From the NCBI GenBank assembly GCA_003645255.1, contig QNES01000024.1, positions 1 to 35,547 on the forward strand: a stretch of 35,547 nt of DNA. Reading direction: 5' to 3'. Under the pieces are notes generated by a model that worked only from the letters and a program-made list of their open reading frames with translations, made no database searches and was not told the DNA's origin. The DNA comes from Gammaproteobacteria bacterium (GTDB lineage: Bacteria; Pseudomonadota; Gammaproteobacteria; Beggiatoales; Beggiatoaceae). Shown here in pieces: positions 25,742 to 35,345 of this stretch. The position numbers were made by a program, and so were the translations under genes. Each line of letters opens with the position of its first letter. Positions within the stretch are counted from its first letter, which is position 1.

Positions 25742-26131
25742 ATGCAGATTCTTATGAAAAGCAACCAATCTGCGCTCAAAGAATTGGAACTAGCGACAGG
25801 CGAGATCGTTTCTGACTGCTATCAATGCGGTAAATGTACTGCCGGTTGTCCGGCTTCCATGGACCCTTCTCCAAGTGTACTGATTCATTATCTTAAACTT
25901 GGATTATTTGAAAAAGCCGTCAATTCTGAATCGATATGGTCCTGTATGGGCTGCCTGACTTGTTCAGAACGCTGCCCCAAAAATGTCAGCCCTGCTGCCA
26001 TTGTCGAAGGACTTAAACGGCTTCATTTGAATCGGATGAAACCACGGGTCATTCTCCATGCCCTTGGGCAGGAATTTTTGGCTAACTCGACTCAACAAGC
26101 CGTTGTCAGCGGTTTTAGAAAGTTCGTATAA
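25742..26131 (+). CDS. hdrC: Heterodisulfide reductase subunit C (ferredoxin-like)
   Basis: The 129-residue protein carries two 4Fe-4S motifs, C26-C29-C32-C36 (CYQCGKCTAGCP) and C68-C71-C74-C78 (CMGCLTCSERCP), in the HdrC arrangement. In Hdr complexes this subunit passes electrons from HdrA to HdrB. Like soluble HdrC and unlike HdrE/DsrM-linked forms, it has no membrane partner here. GAGGTGA lies 5-9 bp before the start. hdrB follows after 7 bp. It opens the nine-gene rightward cluster and should work with the SdhB-like and SdhA-like proteins encoded just downstream. Confidence 0.93.
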   Translation: MQILMKSNQSALKELELATGEIVSDCYQCGKCTAGCPASMDPSPSVLIHYLKLGLFEKAVNSESIWSCMGCLTCSERCPKNVSPAAIVEGLKRLHLNRMKPRVILHALGQEFLANSTQQAVVSGFRKFV

Positions 26132-26138
26132 GGAAGTT

Positions 26139-27074
26139 ATGTCTAAAAATCTTACTCATGTCCCCTATTATCCTGGCTGCTCTTTGAAAACAAAAGCACT
26201 AGGTTATGAACGCTCGGCGATGGATTGTGCCAAAGCGATTGGTTTTGAAATGCATGAAATTGCGACTTGGAATTGTTGTGGTGCTTCTTTTCCTCTGACC
26301 AAAGATAATTTGATGGGGCTGGCTGCGCCCGCCAATATTTTACTGGAAGCTGAACAGCATTGTCAGGAACGAGAGATCGATGCAAACCTCATTACGCTTT
26401 GCTCTTTTTGTTATAACACGCTCAAGCGCACTGATTTCGCTTTTCGGGAAGAACCCAAAAAGTTGGAAACTTTGAATGCTTTTTTGAAGCGTCAATATCA
26501 GGGCAGTATTAAGGTAGTGCATTATCTGGAATATTTGCGCGATGTCATTGGTTTTGATAATTTGGCAAAAATGGTCAAAAGAGATATGAGTAGCCTCCGG
26601 GTGGCTCCTTATTATGGTTGTCTCTTACTAAAACCACAAAAGGAAATGGCTTTAGATGATCCGGAAGAGCCGGTCATTCTCCATGATTTTCTTGAGGCTA
26701 TTGGTTGTCAAGTCGTTGATTTTCCTGGTCAAGTAGACTGTTGTGGCTCTTACCTGATCATGCGCGATCCAGAAAAGGTACTGGAACTTTCGCACAATAT
26801 TCTTCAGGAAGCGAATGATTACGGTGCGGATGCACTGGTGACAGCTTGTCCTCTTTGTCAATCTAATCTTGATCAGAGTGAAGGTGAAAGACGCGGTTCC
26901 GATCACTATATTGGTGTACAAGGAATGCCCATTTTTTATTTTACTCAATTACTGGCTGTCGCATTGGGTTTAGATACTGAGCCACATCAGTTTGAAAGGC
27001 ATTGCATTGATCCAACGTCTATTTTATCAGCCTGTTTAGAAGATGGAGCTAAACCAATTGAAGCGAAAAAATAA
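26139..27074 (+). CDS. hdrB: Heterodisulfide reductase subunit B
   Basis: The 311-residue protein contains two complete CCG modules, C14, C46-C47, C88, C91 and C161, C201-C202, C237, C240. This is the spacing of methanogen HdrB, where each module binds a non-cubane 4Fe-4S cluster that cleaves the heterodisulfide. All ten cysteines are intact, so a disulfide/dithiol reaction is chemically plausible; the natural thiol is unknown, as coenzymes M and B are not expected here. The start at 26139 (MSKNLTHVPYYPGC) follows AAGGAAG and sits 7 bp after hdrC; a start at 26058 would overlap hdrC and add a non-family N-terminus. Alternatively it may act as an electron conduit to the fumarate-reductase-like pair, as the HdrB-like half of methanogen TfrB does. 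Confidence 0.93.
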   Translation: MSKNLTHVPYYPGCSLKTKALGYERSAMDCAKAIGFEMHEIATWNCCGASFPLTKDNLMGLAAPANILLEAEQHCQEREIDANLITLCSFCYNTLKRTDFAFREEPKKLETLNAFLKRQYQGSIKVVHYLEYLRDVIGFDNLAKMVKRDMSSLRVAPYYGCLLLKPQKEMALDDPEEPVILHDFLEAIGCQVVDFPGQVDCCGSYLIMRDPEKVLELSHNILQEANDYGADALVTACPLCQSNLDQSEGERRGSDHYIGVQGMPIFYFTQLLAVALGLDTEPHQFERHCIDPTSILSACLEDGAKPIEAKK

Positions 27075-27091
27075 TCAGGAGTTATTATCTC

Positions 27092-27886
27092 ATGCCGAAT
27101 GAAAATAAGCAGATCAATCACGTTGCTATGGTAGGAGATCGGACTATACCGCCCAAAGATGCTAGGTTCATTGAAATCTATATCATGGGGCAAAGGTACA
27201 AAGTGCCGGAAACCTTAACCATTCTCAAAGCAATGGAATATGTAGGCTATCAATTTAAACGAAGTTGTGGATGCCGTGGTGGGATTTGTGGAGCTTGTGG
27301 TACTTTTTATCGTATTTTGGGTGACCATAGCATATATACCGGTTTGGCTTGTCAAACCGTGGTAGAACCGGGCATGATTTTGGCGCAAAGTCCCTTTTTT
27401 CCACCCAATCGAGCAGATCATATTGGCATTCTTGACAGTAAAATGCCTCCGGATGAGCATATTGCTACACTTTATCCGGAAATATTTCGTTGTGTAGGCT
27501 GTGGCACTTGCACACGGACCTGTCCGATGGGAATTGATGTGATGAACTATATTGCCTTGTTCAAGCGAGGTGATGTATTAGGGGGTGCCAAAGAGTCATT
27601 TGATTGCATTATGTGCGGACTTTGTGTGGTACGTTGTCCGGCTAATATTACCCAAATGAAAGTGGGTTTAGCCGGACGGCGCATTGCCGCAGCTCAGTTA
27701 ATTCCTAGATCAGAAGTGACCAAAAAACGAGCCGAACAGGTTCGCGCCGGTCGCTATGAAACGATGTTAGCTGAATTAGGTCAAATGGACAGAGAAAAAC
27801 TCAAGGAAATATATACCTCCCGGGAGCGGGAGCCTAATTTATCTGGACCCGGTGAATGGATGCCAAAAGATCAATCACACTTGTAA
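27092..27886 (+). CDS. SdhB/TfrB-like iron-sulfur subunit
   Basis: The 264-residue soluble protein has an N-terminal plant-type 2Fe-2S domain (CGCRGGICGAC with a distal LAC) and two 4Fe-4S motifs, CVGCGTCTRTCP (about 135-146) and CIMCGLCVVRCP (about 172-183). This is the layout of the N-terminal half of methanogen thiol:fumarate reductase subunit TfrB, and of SdhB without a membrane-anchor partner. The C-terminal 60 residues are charged and helical. It should bridge HdrB/HdrC and the flavoprotein encoded 12 bp downstream. AGGAG lies in the leader. The separate HdrB gene upstream plus this gene equal a split TfrB. Confidence 0.85.
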   Translation: MPNENKQINHVAMVGDRTIPPKDARFIEIYIMGQRYKVPETLTILKAMEYVGYQFKRSCGCRGGICGACGTFYRILGDHSIYTGLACQTVVEPGMILAQSPFFPPNRADHIGILDSKMPPDEHIATLYPEIFRCVGCGTCTRTCPMGIDVMNYIALFKRGDVLGGAKESFDCIMCGLCVVRCPANITQMKVGLAGRRIAAAQLIPRSEVTKKRAEQVRAGRYETMLAELGQMDREKLKEIYTSREREPNLSGPGEWMPKDQSHL

Positions 27887-27898
27887 GGAAGGAATATC

Positions 27899-29569
27899 AT
27901 GTCAGACGGTTATACTCCGGAAATGTTGGAACTTATTAAGCGGGTGGAGGCAAGTCGTCCTCAACGTCTTGCTCAGGCACGCGCCGGGAATGATTTTCCT
28001 GCCATGTCTCTTGAACAGCGTAAGGAAGTGCTAAATCAATTCCACCCTGATTATACGACTGAAGGACGGCGTGTGCTTGGAATTGGGCCTAACAAAGAAG
28101 AGGTCCTTCCAGAAGAATTGGTTGACCTATTAGAGTCACGCAGTATTATTGAATCAGTTAACCCTGATCTTTCTAAGCCCGATATGGAAACCGATGTTTT
28201 AGTTATCGGTGGTGGTGGTGCTGGCACAGCCGCAGCGCTTACTGCTATGCAGGAAGGTTGCAAAGTTATCATGGCAACAAAATTGCGTCAAGGTGATTCT
28301 AATACAGTGATGGCAGAGGGCGGTATTCAAGCAGCCGATCAAGAACCCGATTCGCCTTATTATCATTACCTAGATGTGATTGGGGGTGGGCATTTTACTA
28401 ATACTCACGAATTGGTAGCCGCAATGGCCAATGACGCGCCCATGATCATGGAATGGCTAGAAAGTTTAGGGGTCATGTTTGATAAACATCCCGATGGACG
28501 TATGAAAGTGCGTCATGGTGGTGGGACTTGTCGTAAGCGGATGCACTCTGCTGGTGACATGACCGGCGCAGAAATTATGCGGGTATTACGGGATGAAACC
28601 CGTAATCATAATGAGCAAATCAAACTTTTAGCATTTTCGCCTGCGATAGAATTGCTATTAGATAATGAAGGCAAGTGTGCCGGGGTCATCCTTCATAATA
28701 TGGAAACCAGGACCTATTTGGTCGTCAAAGCCAAAACGGTCATCATCGCTACAGGTGGCACAGGACGGCTTCATTATCGTGGTTTTGCCTGTACTAATCA
28801 TTATGGTGCCACTGGAGATGGACTCGTCATGGCTTATCGTGCGGGTGCAAAGCTTTGTTTTATGGATTCTGTTCAATATCATCCCACAGGTACTTCTTAT
28901 CCGGAACAAAATGTGGGTCTTTTGGTAACTGAAAAGGTACGTGGACTGGGTGCCCAATTAACCAATATTGAGGGCAACCAGTTTGTTTTTCCGCTAGAAC
29001 CGCGTGATGTCGAATCAGCAGCTATTATTCGCGAATGTCTTGGTTTAGAAAAAGGAATAACTACCCCGACTGGGCGACCAGGGGTTTGGCTGGATTCCCC
29101 AATGATTGATCTACTGCATGGCGAAGGCACGGTTAAACGGGAACTTCCTGCAAAACATATTCAATTTAAACGATTTGGAATTGATATTGCCAAATACCCG
29201 ATGTTGGTTTATCCCACTTTGCATTATCAAAATGGGGGTATTCAGATTGATGAACAATCAGGAACCGACATACCCAATTTGTTTGCTGCTGGAGAAACGA
29301 CCGGGGGTGTTCATGGACGTAATCGGTTGATGGGAAATTCTTTGCTAGACATTCTCGTTTTCGGGCGACGTGCCGGCAAAGCCGCTGCTAAAGCGGTTAA
29401 AGCTGGAATAAAACAGGGAACGCTATCTCTGGATCATCTGACCCAATATGGTCAAACGCTTAGTGAGACTGGATTAGATCGAGGGGTTAAAAGCCCTATG
29501 ATCCTTCCCAATTATGCTATTGATGAAGTTAATAGACGACGTTGGGATGTAAAGTCACCGATCATTTAA
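27899..29569 (+). CDS. SdhA/TfrA-like fumarate reductase-type flavoprotein
   Basis: The 556-residue FAD enzyme should interconvert fumarate and succinate. An unusual N-terminal extension of about 97 residues precedes the dinucleotide fold (VLVIGGGGAGTAAAL). Catalytic features of FrdA/SdhA are conserved: QYHPTG histidine and threonine, LVTEKVRG, the proton-shuttle arginine in PRDVESA, PTLHYQNGGI histidine, and GRNRLMGNSLLD arginine. Where classical SdhA has the FAD-linking histidine (SHT), this protein has S134-N135-T136, so FAD should be non-covalent. Only about 75 residues follow the NRLMGNS motif, so the usual C-terminal helical domain is missing. GGAAGG precedes the start. It lies 12 bp after the SdhB-like gene. 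A related activity such as another enoate reduction is possible. Confidence 0.88.
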   Translation: MSDGYTPEMLELIKRVEASRPQRLAQARAGNDFPAMSLEQRKEVLNQFHPDYTTEGRRVLGIGPNKEEVLPEELVDLLESRSIIESVNPDLSKPDMETDVLVIGGGGAGTAAALTAMQEGCKVIMATKLRQGDSNTVMAEGGIQAADQEPDSPYYHYLDVIGGGHFTNTHELVAAMANDAPMIMEWLESLGVMFDKHPDGRMKVRHGGGTCRKRMHSAGDMTGAEIMRVLRDETRNHNEQIKLLAFSPAIELLLDNEGKCAGVILHNMETRTYLVVKAKTVIIATGGTGRLHYRGFACTNHYGATGDGLVMAYRAGAKLCFMDSVQYHPTGTSYPEQNVGLLVTEKVRGLGAQLTNIEGNQFVFPLEPRDVESAAIIRECLGLEKGITTPTGRPGVWLDSPMIDLLHGEGTVKRELPAKHIQFKRFGIDIAKYPMLVYPTLHYQNGGIQIDEQSGTDIPNLFAAGETTGGVHGRNRLMGNSLLDILVFGRRAGKAAAKAVKAGIKQGTLSLDHLTQYGQTLSETGLDRGVKSPMILPNYAIDEVNRRRWDVKSPII

Positions 29570-29584
29570 TCGAATAAGATTCAC

Positions 29585-29693
29585 TCTGAATCGCGGATTT
29601 TAAGGTATGTATACCAGAAAAACACACTAAGAAATACTATTTTTCCAAAAAATAGTATTTCTGATTGGCAATCTGTAAAATTCGTGATCCAAA
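29585..29693. repeat. Nested inverted repeats between the flavoprotein gene and hdrA
   Basis: The outer, imperfect arms are TCTGAATCGCGGATTTTA (29585-29602) and TAAAATTCGTGATCCAAA (29676-29693). The inner palindrome is perfect: AGAAATACTATTTTT at 29630-29644 and its complement at 29648-29662. The inner unit differs from copies at 16201 and 31813 at two paired positions. It fills most of the 145-bp gap between cluster modules. Confidence 0.85.
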
Positions 29694-29714
29694 GATTGGA
29701 GGGGAGATTAAAGT

Positions 29715-31763
29715 ATGGCAAAAATAGGAGTCTTTGTCTGTCAGTGCGGTAATAACATTGCTCGTACTGTAGATACTGCCGATGTAGCTGAAAAAACGGG
29801 TGAACTTAGTGGTGTTGCTCATGTGGAAGATTATAAATTCATGTGTTCCGCGCCCGGTCAAGAAATGTTCAAAAAAGCCATCAAAGATAATAATTTAGAT
29901 GGTTGCATTGTTTCTGCCTGTAGCCCGAAAATGCACGAAGCCACTTTTAGAAAAGCGGCAGAAGATGCCGGGCTAAATCCTTTCAAAGTGGAAATTGCCA
30001 ATATCCGCGAACAATGTTCCTGGGTGCATGATGATAAAGAAATCGCGACGGCTAAATCCAAAGACATAACTAAAATGATGGTGAATCGGTTGAAATATAA
30101 CCGGCCATTAGAACGCTACAAGATGCCAGTCACCAAGCGGGCTTTGATTATCGGTGGCGGTATCGCAGGTATTCAGGCGGCTTTGGATTTAGCTAATGCC
30201 CAGATTCCTGTGTCGATTGTGGAACGCGAGCCTTCTTTGGGCGGTAATATGGCTAGATTGTCAGAAACCTTTCCCACCTTGGACTGTTCGCAATGTATTT
30301 TGACCCCAAGAATGGTAGAAGTTTCCAACCACCCGCTTATCAGCATTCATAGTTATGCTGAATTGGAAAAGTTGGATGGCTACATTGGTAATTTCCGTGC
30401 CACTATCCGCTTAAAAGCGAAAAGTGTGATAGAAAAAGATTGTACAGGTTGTGGAGAATGTTGGGAAAAATGTCCTTTCACGGTTGAAAATGAATTTGAT
30501 ATGGGTTTGAGTAAACGTAGCGTGATTTACATACCTTTTCCTCAAGCTGTCCCAACAGTGCCTGTGATTGACAGAGAAAATTGTCCCAAATTTATTAAAG
30601 ACAAATGTGGTTTATGCGCTAAAGTGTGTGGACAACAATGTATCGACTTCACCCAGCAAGATAGAGTGATTGAAGAAGAGTTCGGTGCAGTCATTGTGGC
30701 AACCGGTTTCAAACTGATGCCCAATGTCTATAAAGAATATGGTGGTTATCGCCCGCCACACATGACACCGAAAAAACTGACAGCCAAAATACGTAAAACG
30801 TTACCCCGTTCAACAGCAGGGCGATTGGTTGATGTCATTAATGGCTTAGAATTTGAACGTTTAGCTTCAGCTTCTGGTCCAACCGGGGGTGAAATTCGTC
30901 GCCCTTCAGATGGTAAAGTACCAGAAACTGTCGTGTTTATTGCCTGTGTTGGTTCGCGAGATTGCAACAAAGGTGTTGAGTATTGTTCTAAAATCTGTTG
31001 CATGTACACCGCTAAACATACCATGCTTTATCAACACAATGTCCATCATGGCAAATCCTATGTCTTTTATATGGATATTAGGGCCGGCGGTAAGGGCTAT
31101 GAAGAATTTATCAACCGGGCTCAATCTGAAAACGCGAATTATGTACGGGGACGCGTTTCCAGATTGTCCAAAAAAGGCGATAAGATTTTGGTTAAAGGGG
31201 CTGACACCTTTACCGGTCATGCTTTAGAAATTGAAGCGGATATGGTCGTGCTGGCGACGGCTATGGTGCCTCAAGAAGATGCGATGGGTGTCGCCAAAAA
31301 TTTAGGAATTAGCTACGATCAACATGGCTTTTTCTCCGAACAACATCCTAAATTGATGCCTGTCGATTCTTCCACGGGCGGTATTTATTTAGCAGGTGCC
31401 TGTCAGGGCGTTAAAGACATTCCGGAAACCGTTGCGCAAGCATCGGCGGCAGCTTCTAAAGTGATGCAACTCTTTTCTCGTGAAGAATTAGAGCGCGAAC
31501 CAGAAGTGGCAATAGTCGATGAAAAAAACTGCATGAATTGCTGGGATTGTGTCACAGTTTGCCCCTATAACGCGATTGACCGCACTGAAATCACCAATCG
31601 CCAAGGTCAATTTTTAAAATGGGCAGCCAAAGTCAACCCAGGGCTGTGTCAAGGATGTGGACTTTGCAATACCGTTTGCCGATCAAAAAGTATTGAACTT
31701 GAAGGTTACACCGATCAGCAGGTATATGCACAGATTACGGCTTTTGAGGGGGCTTTTGTCTAA
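29715..31763 (+). CDS. hdrA: Heterodisulfide reductase subunit A, full-length
   Basis: The 682-residue flavoprotein has all modules of methanogen HdrA. There is an N-terminal cysteine-rich domain (C9, C11, C44, C64, C69, C101) and a thioredoxin-reductase-like FAD fold (IIGGGIAG at about 145-152). C191 and C194 (LDCSQCILTP) follow, then an inserted ferredoxin (C243, C246, C249, C253, then C290-C309), the second part of the flavin domain, and a C-terminal double ferredoxin starting at C606. In methanogens this FAD bifurcates electrons between ferredoxin and heterodisulfide. The protein is about twice the size of sHdrA of sulfur oxidisers. A strong GGAGG leader precedes it. Together with FlxD and FlxA it suggests NAD(P)H as electron donor. 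QmoA/QmoB are alternatives, but QmoC is absent and HdrB/HdrC are present. Confidence 0.93.
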   Translation: MAKIGVFVCQCGNNIARTVDTADVAEKTGELSGVAHVEDYKFMCSAPGQEMFKKAIKDNNLDGCIVSACSPKMHEATFRKAAEDAGLNPFKVEIANIREQCSWVHDDKEIATAKSKDITKMMVNRLKYNRPLERYKMPVTKRALIIGGGIAGIQAALDLANAQIPVSIVEREPSLGGNMARLSETFPTLDCSQCILTPRMVEVSNHPLISIHSYAELEKLDGYIGNFRATIRLKAKSVIEKDCTGCGECWEKCPFTVENEFDMGLSKRSVIYIPFPQAVPTVPVIDRENCPKFIKDKCGLCAKVCGQQCIDFTQQDRVIEEEFGAVIVATGFKLMPNVYKEYGGYRPPHMTPKKLTAKIRKTLPRSTAGRLVDVINGLEFERLASASGPTGGEIRRPSDGKVPETVVFIACVGSRDCNKGVEYCSKICCMYTAKHTMLYQHNVHHGKSYVFYMDIRAGGKGYEEFINRAQSENANYVRGRVSRLSKKGDKILVKGADTFTGHALEIEADMVVLATAMVPQEDAMGVAKNLGISYDQHGFFSEQHPKLMPVDSSTGGIYLAGACQGVKDIPETVAQASAAASKVMQLFSREELEREPEVAIVDEKNCMNCWDCVTVCPYNAIDRTEITNRQGQFLKWAAKVNPGLCQGCGLCNTVCRSKSIELEGYTDQQVYAQITAFEGAFV

Positions 31764-31770
31764 ATTGTCT

Positions 31771-31870
31771 GTCTGAATCAGAATTTTAGAATTTTCAGAC
31801 TCAATTGAAAATAGAAATCCGATTTTTGAAAAAATCGGATTTCTTTCCGAAGTAAAATTCTGATTCAGAC
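31771..31870. repeat. Nested inverted repeats between hdrA and flxD
   Basis: The outer perfect 17-bp arms are GTCTGAATCAGAATTTT (31771-31787) and its complement (31854-31870). They enclose a perfect inner palindrome, AGAAATCCGATTTTT at 31813-31827 and 31830-31844. A similar outer arm recurs at 34382-34494. The stem ends 9 bp before the AGGAG of flxD's ribosome-binding site. Confidence 0.9.
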
Positions 31871-31892
31871 AAAAAGGAGAATTTCTCTAAAA

Positions 31893-32366
31893 ATGAGCAA
31901 AAAAATTACGCGCCATGATTTTGAACCCAAGATCATGGCTTTTGTTTGCAAATGGTGTACCTACTCAGGAGCGGATTTGGCTGGCACCAGTCGCATGGAT
32001 TATTCTCCCAATGTACGGATGGTACGCCTTCCCTGTTCAGGACGAATTGATCCGCAATTTTTGATTAAAGCCTTTGAACAAGGGGTGGACGGTGTCATTG
32101 TTTCTGGCTGTCACCCAGGCGATTGTCATTATAACGAAGGTAACTATTACGCCAGGCGACGTAACTTGGCTTTCAGGGAATTGTTAGATTTTCATGGCAT
32201 AGACTTAGCTCGACTTGAATTTTCCTGGATTTCAGCCGCTGAAGCCATTAAATGGACGAAGGTGATAGATGTCTTTACAGACAAAATTCGGGAATTAGGA
32301 CAACACCGTGAATATGCTGACATGACTGATCCTTATGCCCACTATTTAGTAAAGGAGGCGGCATGA
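31893..32366 (+). CDS. flxD: MvhD/FlxD-type 2Fe-2S electron-transfer subunit
   Basis: The 157-residue protein has the five conserved cysteines of the MvhD family: C19-C22 (FVCKWC), C48 (LPCSGRIDP) and C73/C78 (SGCHPGDC). In methanogens MvhD links a hydrogenase to HdrA; in sulfate reducers FlxD links the FlxABC NADH module to HdrA. No hydrogenase gene is present here, so the Flx role fits. AAAGGAG lies upstream. Its stop overlaps the next start by 4 bp (ATGA), indicating translational coupling. All five cysteines are ordinary Cys codons (no UGA/selenocysteine). Confidence 0.92.
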   Translation: MSKKITRHDFEPKIMAFVCKWCTYSGADLAGTSRMDYSPNVRMVRLPCSGRIDPQFLIKAFEQGVDGVIVSGCHPGDCHYNEGNYYARRRNLAFRELLDFHGIDLARLEFSWISAAEAIKWTKVIDVFTDKIRELGQHREYADMTDPYAHYLVKEAA

Positions 32367-33256
32367 TAGAAGCAATTCGCACCCAAGCGCATAACCTCTT
32401 GGAAAATAAAGAAATTGATGTAGTAATTGGTTATGGAAATGGCAGTGATCCGACTCGGACCACCCCGGTGTTTATTCGTAAACCGGAAGAGGTTAATCGA
32501 CTCATTTTTGATCCGCGTTGTATCAATTCGCTGCCCGTTTATCTGAATAAACGTCAGGGTTACCCCAAAAAAGGCTGGAAAAGGGTTGGAATAATCGGCA
32601 AGGGCTGCGATATTCGTGCGATTACACAACTTATTGCTGAAAATCAGTTAAGCCGTGATGAAGTCTATATTTTTGGCGTACCTTGTGATGGCGTAGTTTC
32701 CCACTTTAGCAAATGGGATGGCAGCTTACGCGATGATAATCGGGCTACTAAATGTTCTGAATGTGATGTTCATATACCTAACGACTGCGACTTTTTCCCT
32801 GGTGAACGACCAGAAGTTGACCGTTCAGGTCCTTATAAAGTTTCAGCACCCCAAGTGCTTAATCTATTTAATTTGAAGACTGATAAACGTTTTAAGTTCT
32901 GGGAAAAAGAATTTGAGCGTTGTTTCAAATGTTATGCATGTCGTGAGGTTTGTCCCCACTGCTCCTGCAATATTTGTATTACGGATCGAACGACGCCCAA
33001 CTGGATTGATCAAGCCCCCCATACAAAGGGCGTTTTTGGTTGGCATTTGACCAGAGCCTTACATCTGGTAGGTCGTTGTACCGGTTGTGGGGAATGTACT
33101 CGCGCTTGCCCGGTAGATATTCAAGTCGATCTCTTCAATCAGCGGATGAAAGATGTGGTACAAGGCTCTTTTGGTTATAAGTCAGGCTATTCAGAAACGG
33201 AAAAACCGCCGTTGATTACTTATATGACAGATGATAGCGAAAACTTTATCCAGTAG
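32363..33256 (+). CDS. Flx-type 4Fe-4S electron-transfer protein (297 aa)
   Basis: The N-terminal part (about 1-150) has a cysteine pattern reminiscent of the FrhB/FdhB family (KGCDIRAI, FGVPCDGV, CSECDVH). The C-terminal part carries two 4Fe-4S motifs, C187-C190-C193-C197 and C239-C242-C245-C249, with extra cysteines C200, C202 and C205. It lies between flxD and a HydB-like protein, which matches the FlxB/FlxC pair of sulfate-reducer flx-hdr clusters; I cannot say which of the two it is. An AAAGGAGG leader lies inside the end of flxD, and the start overlaps flxD by 4 bp. It should pass electrons from the NAD(P)H-oxidising FlxA toward FlxD. An extra flavin or F420-like site is possible but unproven. 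Confidence 0.8.
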   Translation: MIEAIRTQAHNLLENKEIDVVIGYGNGSDPTRTTPVFIRKPEEVNRLIFDPRCINSLPVYLNKRQGYPKKGWKRVGIIGKGCDIRAITQLIAENQLSRDEVYIFGVPCDGVVSHFSKWDGSLRDDNRATKCSECDVHIPNDCDFFPGERPEVDRSGPYKVSAPQVLNLFNLKTDKRFKFWEKEFERCFKCYACREVCPHCSCNICITDRTTPNWIDQAPHTKGVFGWHLTRALHLVGRCTGCGECTRACPVDIQVDLFNQRMKDVVQGSFGYKSGYSETEKPPLITYMTDDSENFIQ

Positions 33257-33268
33257 GCTTAACAATCA

Positions 33269-34375
33269 ATGAAAACAGCAACCTTAAATCAAACTGATAT
33301 TGGCAAATGTCTTGATCTTCTGCTCCAATCAGAATTTCGAGTCATTGCACCCCAACTGCGACCTCGACTGGAAAGCCCAGATGCCATTGATGTCATGATG
33401 CTCACCCAAATAGACTCGGGCGAAAATCATGCGGTTGGTCAAGGTGTTTTGCCCCTCAATGGCGTTAAAGAATTTTTATTTGTTAAAGATGAGCCCTTGT
33501 TTGCGTTTGAAAACAAGGGCAAAAAGGTATTGATGACGGAAGTGCATCATGATTATCCTAAAACCGTGATTTTTGGGGTGCGCCCCTGTGATGCGGCTTC
33601 GGTTAGTTCACAGAATGCCGTATTTTCTAAAGCGAATGCCGGGTTTGAGGATCCGTTTTTTACCAAGCGATTAGAAAATACGACCATTGTTACCTATTCT
33701 TGTACGAATCCAGATATGAGTTGTTTTTGTACCTCAGTGGGATTAGCACCTGATAGTGATCGCGGTTCGGATTTACATTTGACTGAAATCCCTGGCAATC
33801 GCTTACAGGTCGAACCCAAAACGCCTGCAGGTGAAATCGTCGCAAAAATATTAGAGCCTTTGTTTCAATGGCCCGGCGAACCGCAAGCCCGTACTCAAGC
33901 AGGAAAAGAAGCACAAGACAAAATCACCCGCATTCGTAACAGCCACCTGATAAAAGGTTGGTTAGATGAATTGAGCAACTTTGATGACGAATTGTGGGAA
34001 AGGCTAGGTGAAAAATGTATCGGATGCGGTGCATGTACCTTTATGTGTCCAACTTGTCATTGTTTCGATATTGTCGATGAAAATCGGGGTGGCAAAGGAT
34101 ATCGGATTAAATTCTGGGATTCATGTCAATTTGATCACTTCACCCTACATGCGTCCGGACATAATCCGCGTGATAGTCAATATAAACGCTATCGCAATCG
34201 TTTTTCGTGTAAGTTTAAGATTTACTTAGATAAATTTGATGCTCAGGGCTGTGTCGGTTGTGGACGTTGTATCCGCGACTGCCCCGTTAATTTAGACATT
34301 ACTGAATATATGAAAGAAGTGGATCTCAAAGCCTCTTTACCCAATGCTTTGCAACGGGATCCTGATTTTGAATAG
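33269..34375 (+). CDS. Flx/HydB-type 4Fe-4S subunit (368 aa)
   Basis: The protein resembles the beta subunit of sulfhydrogenase-type enzymes (HydB) and its FlxB/FlxC relatives. The N-terminal domain has FGVRPCDAAS and CTNPDMSCFCTS. The C-terminal half has two 4Fe-4S motifs, CIGCGACTFMCPTC (about 251-264) and CVGCGRCIRDCP (about 328-339). In HydB-HydG pairs this subunit receives electrons from the FAD/NAD(P)H subunit, here encoded 136 bp downstream. It lies 12 bp after the previous gene. It lacks a strong Shine-Dalgarno, unlike most genes in the cluster. The length is normal for the family. Confidence 0.85.
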   Translation: MKTATLNQTDIGKCLDLLLQSEFRVIAPQLRPRLESPDAIDVMMLTQIDSGENHAVGQGVLPLNGVKEFLFVKDEPLFAFENKGKKVLMTEVHHDYPKTVIFGVRPCDAASVSSQNAVFSKANAGFEDPFFTKRLENTTIVTYSCTNPDMSCFCTSVGLAPDSDRGSDLHLTEIPGNRLQVEPKTPAGEIVAKILEPLFQWPGEPQARTQAGKEAQDKITRIRNSHLIKGWLDELSNFDDELWERLGEKCIGCGACTFMCPTCHCFDIVDENRGGKGYRIKFWDSCQFDHFTLHASGHNPRDSQYKRYRNRFSCKFKIYLDKFDAQGCVGCGRCIRDCPVNLDITEYMKEVDLKASLPNALQRDPDFE

Positions 34376-34381
34376 ATTAAT

Positions 34382-34494
34382 TGTCTGAATCAGAATTTTC
34401 AGAATTTCAGAATTTTCAGAATAATAACTTTTGAATTCAACCATAAGCTTTTAATTCTGTCAATTCTAAAATTCTGAAAATTCTGATTCAGACA
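34382..34494. repeat. 26-bp-arm inverted repeat before flxA
   Basis: Perfect 26-bp arms at 34382-34407 and 34469-34494, beginning TGTCTGAATCAGAATTTTC, enclose a 61-bp loop with further TTCAGAATTT repeats. The outer sequence is the same element as at 31771-31870, but without an inner 15-bp palindrome. The right arm ends immediately before the AAAGGA ribosome-binding site of flxA. Confidence 0.92.
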
Positions 34495-34511
34495 TTAAAG
34501 GAAAAAGTATT

Positions 34512-35345
34512 GTGAACATTTATCAACCCCATCTAATGACCATCAACAAGGTTATCCAAGAAACATCGGATACCAAAACCTTTCATCTAACTTTCCAAGA
34601 CGATTCAGCACGCGAACAATTCAACTTTAAAGCCGGACAATTTGCAGAATATTCCGCTTTTGGCTTTGGAGAAAGCACTTTTTGTATTGCTTCCTCCCCA
34701 ACTCGGACGGACCATATTGAATGCTGTTTCAGGAATGTTGGTAAAAATACAGCAGGATTATTTGCCCTCACAGAAGGTGATACAATGGGCTTTCGTGGTC
34801 CTTACGGTAACACCTTCCCAATCGAACAGTTCAAAGGAAAGCATTTAATTTTCATTGGAGGTGGAATTGCGTTACCCCCATTGCGCTCCCTTATCTGGAA
34901 TGTTTTAGACTTGCGCGATCAATTTGCTGAAGTTTCCATTGTTTACGGCGCACGAACCGTAGATGATCTAGTTTATAAACGAGAATTAACAGAATGGGAA
35001 GAAATGTCAGATGTCACCCTCGTCAAAACGGTCGATCCCGGCGGTGAAACTTCAGACTGGAATGGACATGTCGGCTTCGTCCCCACCATCTTAGAAAAAG
35101 AATTTGTCCCCAGCCCGGATAATGCTATTGCCATCGTCTGTGGTCCCCCCATCATGATCAAATTTACTTTTGAAGCACTGGAGCGGCTCGGCTTTAAGCA
35201 AAATCAAATGATTACGACATTGGAAAATCGTATGAAATGTGGCTTAGGTAAATGTGGGCGATGTAATATAGGCTCCACTTATGTCTGTTTGGATGGACCG
35301 GTATTTTGGGCTTCTGAACTGGCGGCTTTGCCGCCTGAGTTTTAA
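34512..35345 (+). CDS. flxA: FlxA/HydG-type FAD-NAD(P)H oxidoreductase with 2Fe-2S tail
   Basis: The 277-residue protein belongs to the ferredoxin-NADP reductase fold. It has an FAD-binding barrel (FKAGQFAEYSAFGFGEST, about 40-57, then CIASSP), a NAD(P)-binding half (FIGGGIALPPLRSL, about 114-127; YGARTVDDLVYK) and a C-terminal four-cysteine 2Fe-2S motif (MKCGLGKCGRCNIG with a distal YVC). In Flx and sulfhydrogenase complexes it is the NAD(P)H entry point. It starts with GTG at 34512, preceded by AAAGGA. As last gene of the cluster, isolated by a long inverted repeat, it may be translated at a different level from the others. Confidence 0.9.
   Translation: MNIYQPHLMTINKVIQETSDTKTFHLTFQDDSAREQFNFKAGQFAEYSAFGFGESTFCIASSPTRTDHIECCFRNVGKNTAGLFALTEGDTMGFRGPYGNTFPIEQFKGKHLIFIGGGIALPPLRSLIWNVLDLRDQFAEVSIVYGARTVDDLVYKRELTEWEEMSDVTLVKTVDPGGETSDWNGHVGFVPTILEKEFVPSPDNAIAIVCGPPIMIKFTFEALERLGFKQNQMITTLENRMKCGLGKCGRCNIGSTYVCLDGPVFWASELAALPPEF

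Follow-up and report, generated by a model that had tools for sequence, protein, structure and literature searches.

The 35,547-nucleotide window analyzed here is the entire contig G000:C24 of a gammaproteobacterial genome of the family Beggiatoaceae, and positions 25742-35345 of it carry nine genes whose products resemble subunits of heterodisulfide reductase (Hdr), the associated Flx proteins and thiol:fumarate reductase (Tfr); the contig terminates 202 bases past flxA. Consistent with a preliminary description of this DNA, all nine are intact open reading frames on the same strand with zero internal stops, in the order hdrC-hdrB-tfrB-tfrA-hdrA-flxD-flxC-flxB-flxA (Table 1). The gene names given in that description agree with our family scans as statements of kinship. 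Because none of the nine proteins reached a curated NCBIfam cut-off among the matches listed (up to 25 per protein), the names denote kinship here and not family membership.

Table 1. Genes of the cluster and repeats in its long gaps
Feature	Position	Strand	Basis
hdrC-like, two 4Fe-4S clusters	25742..26131	+	family scans, cysteine motifs
hdrB-like, two CCG (non-cubane cluster) motifs	26139..27074	+	start inferred from AAGGAAG ahead of ATG at 26139
tfrB/sdhB-like, 2Fe-2S and two 4Fe-4S, without fused CCG domain	27092..27886	+	family scans, cysteine motifs
tfrA/frdA-like flavoprotein, ~95-residue N-terminal extension, C-terminal part of TfrA model unmatched	27899..29569	+	
dispersed palindrome, tfrA-hdrA gap	29630..29662	no strand	
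full-length hdrA, proposed bifurcating FAD	29715..31763	+	family scans, solved-structure scores
dispersed element with inverted ends TGTCTGAATCAGAATTTT, enclosing second palindrome, hdrA-flxD gap	31770..31872	no strand	
flxD/mvhD	31893..32366	+	family scans
flxC-like Fe-S protein, weak FrhB N-terminal match	32363..33256	+	Pfam, cysteine motifs
flxB-like Fe-S protein, HydB/AsrA-like	33269..34375	+	family scans, cysteine motifs
element with inverted ends TGTCTGAATCAGAATTTT, flxB-flxA gap	34382..34494	no strand	
flxA, FAD/NAD(P)-binding with 2Fe-2S domain, GTG start	34512..35345	+	family scans

Homologues of all seven FlxABCD-HdrABC subunits are encoded together at this locus. The HdrC-like protein matches TIGR03290 at 62 bits and has two CxxCxxCx3C motifs, and the HdrB-like protein has two CCG stretches (PF02754) with the motifs C-x31-CC-x40-CxxC and C-x39-CC-x34-CxxC. 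HdrA, with 682 residues, carries three CxxCxxCx3C motifs plus additional cysteines and reaches 741 bits with the HdrA2 model NF040770 (cut-off 1100), the end part of which is matched by the separate FlxD. FlxD itself matches PF02662 (172 bits), FlxA combines PF00175 and PF10418, and the FlxC-like and FlxB-like proteins, the latter matching PF17179, each show two cysteine cluster motifs by inspection. We placed HdrA by its hidden Markov model and solved-structure scores. Among solved structures, full-length HdrA chains were matched at 552-644 bits, whereas 6tjr, a chain of 349 residues that we take to be sHdrA, reached only 135 bits, and the protein is about twice as long as the short (~350-residue) sHdrA; we therefore rejected the sHdr type for HdrA, in keeping with the preliminary description. 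Also rejected was the SdhE anchor of 8-methylmenaquinol:fumarate reductase (NF042965, cut-off 500), to which HdrB scored only 143 bits.

TfrA is an SdhA/FrdA/TfrA-like flavoprotein: it matches PF00890 (FAD_binding_2) at 263 bits over residues 99-482, and its best solved-structure relatives are flavoproteins of succinate dehydrogenase and fumarate reductase. Alignment to these relatives identified the FrdA-type residues His-328, Thr-344, Glu-345, Arg-369, His-442 and Arg-476, which presumably correspond in position and role to the fumarate-site residues of the Escherichia coli enzyme. All six are kept in 41 of 41 TfrA-type rows (34 of the window type and 7 of a paralogous type), and the position of the covalent-FAD histidine is Asn in every row (Asn-135 in TfrA). 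With the cluster motifs complete and these six residues present, the claim that the key cysteines and catalytic residues are intact holds. An identity as L-aspartate oxidase was rejected, the score to TIGR00551 being 283 bits against a cut-off of 452.75 and the active-site Glu being replaced by Gly. This glutamate, which we take to be the marker of L-aspartate oxidase, is missing in 41 of 41 rows, whereas NadB of the same genome carries it and scores 642 bits, above the cut-off.

TfrA also departs from the methanogen enzyme. Its residues 95-502 align to positions 5-406 of the 546 positions of the methanogen TfrA equivalog NF004900, so that the match ends 140 positions early, and the score of 338.6 bits lies under the cut-off of 718; ahead of the match stands an N-terminal extension of ~95 residues that is common to relatives from Nitrospirota, Chloroflexota and Bacillota. 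Judged from these alignments, TfrA is a distinct fumarate-reductase-type subfamily and not a methanogen TfrA. The conserved extension, the missing C-terminal match and scores under the cut-off of every model among the 25 NCBIfam matches listed could mean that TfrA acts on another dicarboxylate or an unsaturated acid instead of fumarate; we consider this very improbable, as the fumarate site is unchanged in all 41 rows and the TfrBA of relatives is accompanied by fumarase and succinyl-CoA ligase (see below). TfrB is SdhB/TfrB-like, with one 2Fe-2S and two CxxCxxCx3C motifs by inspection. In methanogen TfrB, HdrB-like and SdhB-like parts lie in one chain; here, SdhB-like and CCG parts are two separate proteins, and the first part of the methanogen TfrB model NF004898 (cut-off 385) is matched by TfrB and the second by HdrB, at 35 bits each. 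A six-row AlphaFold model of TfrA had a mean predicted local distance difference test score of 56.5 and was not used.

The reading that we favor, with modest confidence, is that the nine genes encode a soluble bifurcating NADH:fumarate/ferredoxin reductase built on a Flx-HdrABC platform. FlxA would accept hydride from NADH, and electrons would travel via FlxB/FlxC and on through FlxD to HdrA, whose FAD is the proposed site of bifurcation; from there one electron would go to ferredoxin (Fd) and the other through HdrC, the non-cubane clusters of HdrB and TfrB to TfrA, reducing fumarate to succinate. The net reaction would be 2 NADH + fumarate + 2 Fd(ox) -> 2 NAD+ + succinate + 2 Fd(red). With textbook potentials of -320 mV for NADH, -420 to -500 mV for ferredoxin and +33 mV for fumarate, it would be favorable by ~30-50 kJ/mol. 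We infer that the proteins form one complex, that it bifurcates along this path and in this direction, and that it uses NADH over NADPH. The link between NADH, ferredoxin and fumarate put forward in the preliminary description is thus supported by the family scans, by active-site conservation and by recurrence in other genomes.

Fumarate reduction by NADH is energetically downhill even if ferredoxin takes no part, and the Hdr and Flx parts could simply wire NADH to TfrA in a non-bifurcating NADH:fumarate reductase, like the soluble NADH-dependent enzyme of Hydrogenobacter, reportedly described by Miura in 2008. In four genomes of the family, a paralogous TfrA has a NuoF-like gene as its neighbor, which would be a simpler NADH wiring. 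For the cluster itself we regard this explanation as decidedly unlikely, given that a full-length HdrA with Fe-S motifs and kinship to solved HdrA chains would be superfluous to it. PMC7282089 also favors ferredoxin coupling, from fermentation data.

In the host, the bifurcating enzyme would supply both the fumarate step of the reductive tricarboxylic acid (rTCA) cycle and low-potential ferredoxin for 2-oxoglutarate:ferredoxin oxidoreductase (OGOR) and pyruvate:ferredoxin oxidoreductase (PFOR). The preliminary description had suggested an internal electron sink or the making of reduced ferredoxin under anoxia; this is narrower than the genome suggests, as genes for AclA, KorAB and PFOR-like proteins point to an rTCA cycle. 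AclA has a citrate-binding domain above cut-off, with a weaker AclB-like neighbor. KorA is above cut-off with a KorB-like gene adjoining it on contig C21, and the genome further encodes a NifJ-like fragment, a fused PorAB-like protein (both resembling pyruvate:ferredoxin oxidoreductase) and a RuBisCO large-subunit family protein. PF01855 matches were found on contigs C19, C9, C21 and C23 and none on C24. A search of the genome for a 16S rRNA gene gave no match.

Two observations on the genome speak against this picture. At 1e-5 the AclB-like protein (915 residues) matched CoA-binding and succinyl-CoA-ligase domains alone and no citrate synthase domain, and for this reason the rTCA cycle is rated as probable only. 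In addition, a B. subtilis-type SdhA above cut-off is encoded, so that fumarate reduction need not depend on the cluster. This SdhA (L029:7023-8936, on G000:C50) has no SdhB or SdhC recognized alongside, and an SdhB-like gene, a 270-residue open frame scoring 87 bits against a cut-off of 88, lies on contig C82. The ATP-citrate lyase genes (L025:1031-7244, on G000:C143) are directly followed by a DNA cytosine methylase (PF00145) and then by a frame for what may be the restriction enzyme partnering it. A second Hdr system is present at L030:3244-8552 (G000:C74), where two HdrA-like genes, by size and order presumably a QmoA/QmoB-like pair, precede HdrC- and HdrB-like genes.

Among 398 genomes drawn from Bacillota, the phylum of a Defluviitaleaceae relative (G442), window-type TfrA was found in 39 (40 matches). 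HdrB or HdrA lay nearby in 21 of the 40 matches. At six of these the complete set of nine stands together, all on the same strand; 11 had HdrA, FlxD and the FlxC-like protein without FlxA/FlxB (nine of them also with HdrC and HdrB, two cut by contig ends), and four had HdrC and HdrB without HdrA. With one locus from outside the draw (L011), there are seven nine-gene loci in Bacillota (L010, L011, L168 and L177-L180); FlxD and FlxC share a single frame in L011, and some genes of L010 and L011 are separated by small unassigned frames. Their orders are TfrBA-HdrBCA-FlxDCBA and HdrCBA- or HdrBCA-FlxDCBA-TfrBA, and the window's order, HdrCB-TfrBA-HdrA-FlxDCBA, differs from all seven. Because gene content is shared and order has changed, the association points to a functional link beyond inherited order. 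A TfrA tree of 43 rows was made by a quick method, and two of its outgroup branches are very long. On it, the nine-gene label requires four changes, and the window clusters with G007, a Nitrospirota row and nine Hdr-less Pseudomonadota rows with a support of 99, from the Shimodaira-Hasegawa-like approximate likelihood ratio test only. A pattern-based scan of the contig collection gave five loci. Three nine-gene Bacillota loci sit on contigs of 2.8-3.2 million bases, and isolates that carry the locus may therefore exist.

Nine further Bacillota loci (L140-L145, L148, L158 and L159) have a normal HdrA and, ahead of TfrBA, a second frame of 1053-1489 residues that matches HdrA, FlxD and the FlxC-like protein, without FlxA/FlxB. 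Judging by these frames, such clusters would have a different electron input.

Several distributional results weigh against the bifurcating complex. Neither HdrA nor HdrB was found at 19 of the 40 Bacillota matches (one having an HdrC-like match), a count that is an upper bound, as the stretch read spanned ~13 kb upstream and 4.5 kb downstream of tfrA and several contigs stop short of that; at L007, a 3.3-kb contig, the missing Hdr is uninformative. Window-type TfrA occurs in 31 of 398 Pseudomonadota genomes drawn (own genome counted), and among the nine of 30 other relatives whose neighborhoods were examined, two of them by family scan, a separate Hdr/Flx frame was found in none of the nine outside the family within the stretch fetched, some contigs being short. 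With so many relatives lacking Hdr, TfrBA seems able to function without the platform. In the window's own order, window-type TfrA was found in three of 42 genomes (G000, G007 and G008) and window-type HdrA also in three (G000, G037 and G008, at 100, 92 and 89% identity). The hdrC-hdrB-tfrB-tfrA run extends up to the end of its contig in both G007 and G008. In G008, unrelated frames fill the 1.8 kb ahead of hdrA, so that tfrA does not adjoin hdrA there. In G037 (87% complete), hdrA-flxD-flxC-flxB-flxA begins 323 bases from a contig end, those 323 bases do not hold tfrA, and window-type tfrA was not found in the genome; conversely, G007 (90% complete) has hdrCB-tfrBA, and window-type hdrA was not found. 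The association of Tfr-like and Flx genes that the preliminary description called for thus recurs across phyla, but is not tight within the window's own family. Three frames ahead of hdrA in G008 and a 476-residue frame before hdrC in G007 had no identification by NCBIfam, nor by Pfam for the two of the four that were scanned.

These results bring in a second explanation, that two enzymes share a locus but do not exchange electrons directly: with NADH and ferredoxin, Flx-HdrABC would reduce a disulfide, for example of a DsrC-like protein, and the resulting dithiol or another carrier would feed TfrAB. Besides the many relatives with TfrBA and no Hdr and the arrangement in G008, the two complete CCG motifs of HdrB, as in disulfide-reducing HdrB, speak for it. 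Against it speaks that TfrBA and Hdr have been joined repeatedly and in more than one gene order, with HdrC-HdrB next to TfrBA and no HdrA at four of the 40 Bacillota matches; this suggests a direct contact of HdrB with TfrB. So does the fusion of SdhB-like and HdrB-like parts in methanogen TfrB, the two halves of whose model are matched here by TfrB and HdrB. In PMC11636981, the genes of the Endoriftia cluster are similarly expressed except tfrAB, which counts against the single complex and for separate enzymes, and one of the two models named there runs via a DsrC-like protein and reduced ferredoxin. Overall, we rate separate enzymes as unlikely, although less so than the simple NADH wire, and retain the bifurcating reductase.

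In the two Pseudomonadota relatives without Hdr in the stretch read whose neighboring genes were scanned, the neighbors of TfrBA still include enzymes of fumarate and succinate steps, which ties TfrBA to these substrates: malate dehydrogenase, fumarase and succinyl-CoA ligase beta in L091, and succinyl-CoA ligase, KorA and a KorB-like gene in L094. Both sets have the appearance of rTCA operons.

The paralogous TfrA, 46-47% identical to TfrA of the window, occurs in the window's own family (G000:C130, at L033:4411-5976, and L081, L083, L086 and L090). In G007, G037 and G038 it lies between a TfrB-like gene upstream and a NuoF-like gene downstream, and in G008 a NuoF-like gene comes next at the contig end. 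The genome of the window has it without either partner, beside a gene (L033:3034-4119) for a protein with about eight tandem nine-residue repeats (NRGRFAFKA). The NuoF-like proteins score below NuoF cut-offs; together with the paralogous TfrA they are a possible soluble NADH:fumarate reductase. We give an even chance to the view that the Hdr platform carries an exchangeable fumarate reductase: the TfrBA subfamily, recognizable by its N-terminal part, would have been attached to Flx-Hdr, or never parted from it, in two or more phyla and in differing gene orders, and the paralogous TfrA of the window's own family would have been attached to a NuoF-like NADH module instead. If so, a single enzyme would feed two reductive steps of the rTCA cycle.

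Within the cluster, the intergenic gaps from hdrC to flxA are 7, 17, 12, 145, 129, -4, 12 and 136 bases (hdrB counted from 26139); hdrC-hdrB-tfrB-tfrA are thus spaced by 7 to 17 bases, flxD and flxC overlap, and flxC and flxB are 12 bases apart. Promoter-like matches are at chance level (22 compared with a mean of 21.8 in shuffles), and terminator-like matches exceed it (17 compared with 9.9) but lie partly inside genes; operon structure is therefore read from gene spacing. The three long gaps (145, 129 and 136 bases) contain dispersed palindromic repeats of two families, which recur on several other fetched contigs of the same genome and also in G037. Because the tfrA-hdrA gap contains such a repeat, a misjoin in this 313-contig assembly is possible there, though the repeat is short.

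Compared with known systems, the cluster contains all seven kinds of subunit of the FlxABCD-HdrABC of Desulfovibrio vulgaris, reportedly described by Ramos in 2015, with the Tfr genes as an addition. It shares with methanogen TfrAB an FAD_binding_2 subunit with the fumarate residues and without the covalent-FAD histidine, but differs from it in the low equivalog score, in the CCG part being a separate HdrB and in the extra N-terminal part. In Moorella, MetFV-HdrABC-MvhD likewise joins a metabolic reductase to an HdrABC-MvhD platform, the reductase there being MetFV and no Tfr, and its ferredoxin link carries a question mark (PMC5861303). PMC4914600 places frdA/sdhA next to hdrA and mvhD in large sulfur bacteria. 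If the Hdr platform does carry an exchangeable fumarate reductase, the high-potential acceptors for bifurcation by HdrA would include fumarate next to heterodisulfide and methylene-tetrahydrofolate, the last of these itself a proposal. A ferredoxin-reducing fumarate reductase would cut the energy cost of the rTCA cycle and of succinate fermentation.

The preliminary description knew of no characterized complex of this exact composition. A purified complex of Tfr-Flx-Hdr composition was indeed found nowhere in the literature searched, which covers few subscription journals, but as a statement of novelty the claim goes too far: the composition appeared in print in 2019 (PMC6315080) and in 2020 (PMC7282089). 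The latter source describes in Pseudoclostridium thermosuccinogenes a 'succinate operon' that combines fumarase with Flx-Hdr and a fumarate reductase. It treats fumarate reductase as linked to ferredoxin reduction, argued from fermentation data, crediting the proposal to a 2019 preprint. Flx-Hdr and fumarate reductase stand together there as here; that operon includes fumarase and its host is fermentative, whereas no fumarase was recognized by eye among the window's frames, the contig stopping after flxA. For the rTCA clusters of Escarpia and Riftia symbionts and of Thioflavicoccus mobilis, Rubin-Blum et al. (2019; PMC6315080) reported that tfrAB and korABCD are intermixed with the flxABCD-hdrABC genes and suggested a complex feeding OGOR and fumarate reductase; in PMC11636981, korABCD lies between hdrA and hdrBC in the tubeworm-symbiont cluster. 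The two systems share the nine gene names in one locus, a genome with RuBisCO and probable ATP-citrate lyase, and the proposed electron flow; they differ in the interspersed korABCD, for here the window has no gene for pyruvate or 2-oxoglutarate oxidoreductase and KorAB is on C21. The cluster is one more case of an arrangement already in print and apparently not yet purified, to which the present analysis adds the nine-gene recurrence in Bacillota in other orders, the conservation of the six residues in a flavoprotein that scores well under the methanogen TfrA cut-off, and the carbon-fixation gene set of the host. Overall, this recurrence suggests that the Tfr-Flx-Hdr link is not peculiar to tubeworm symbionts.

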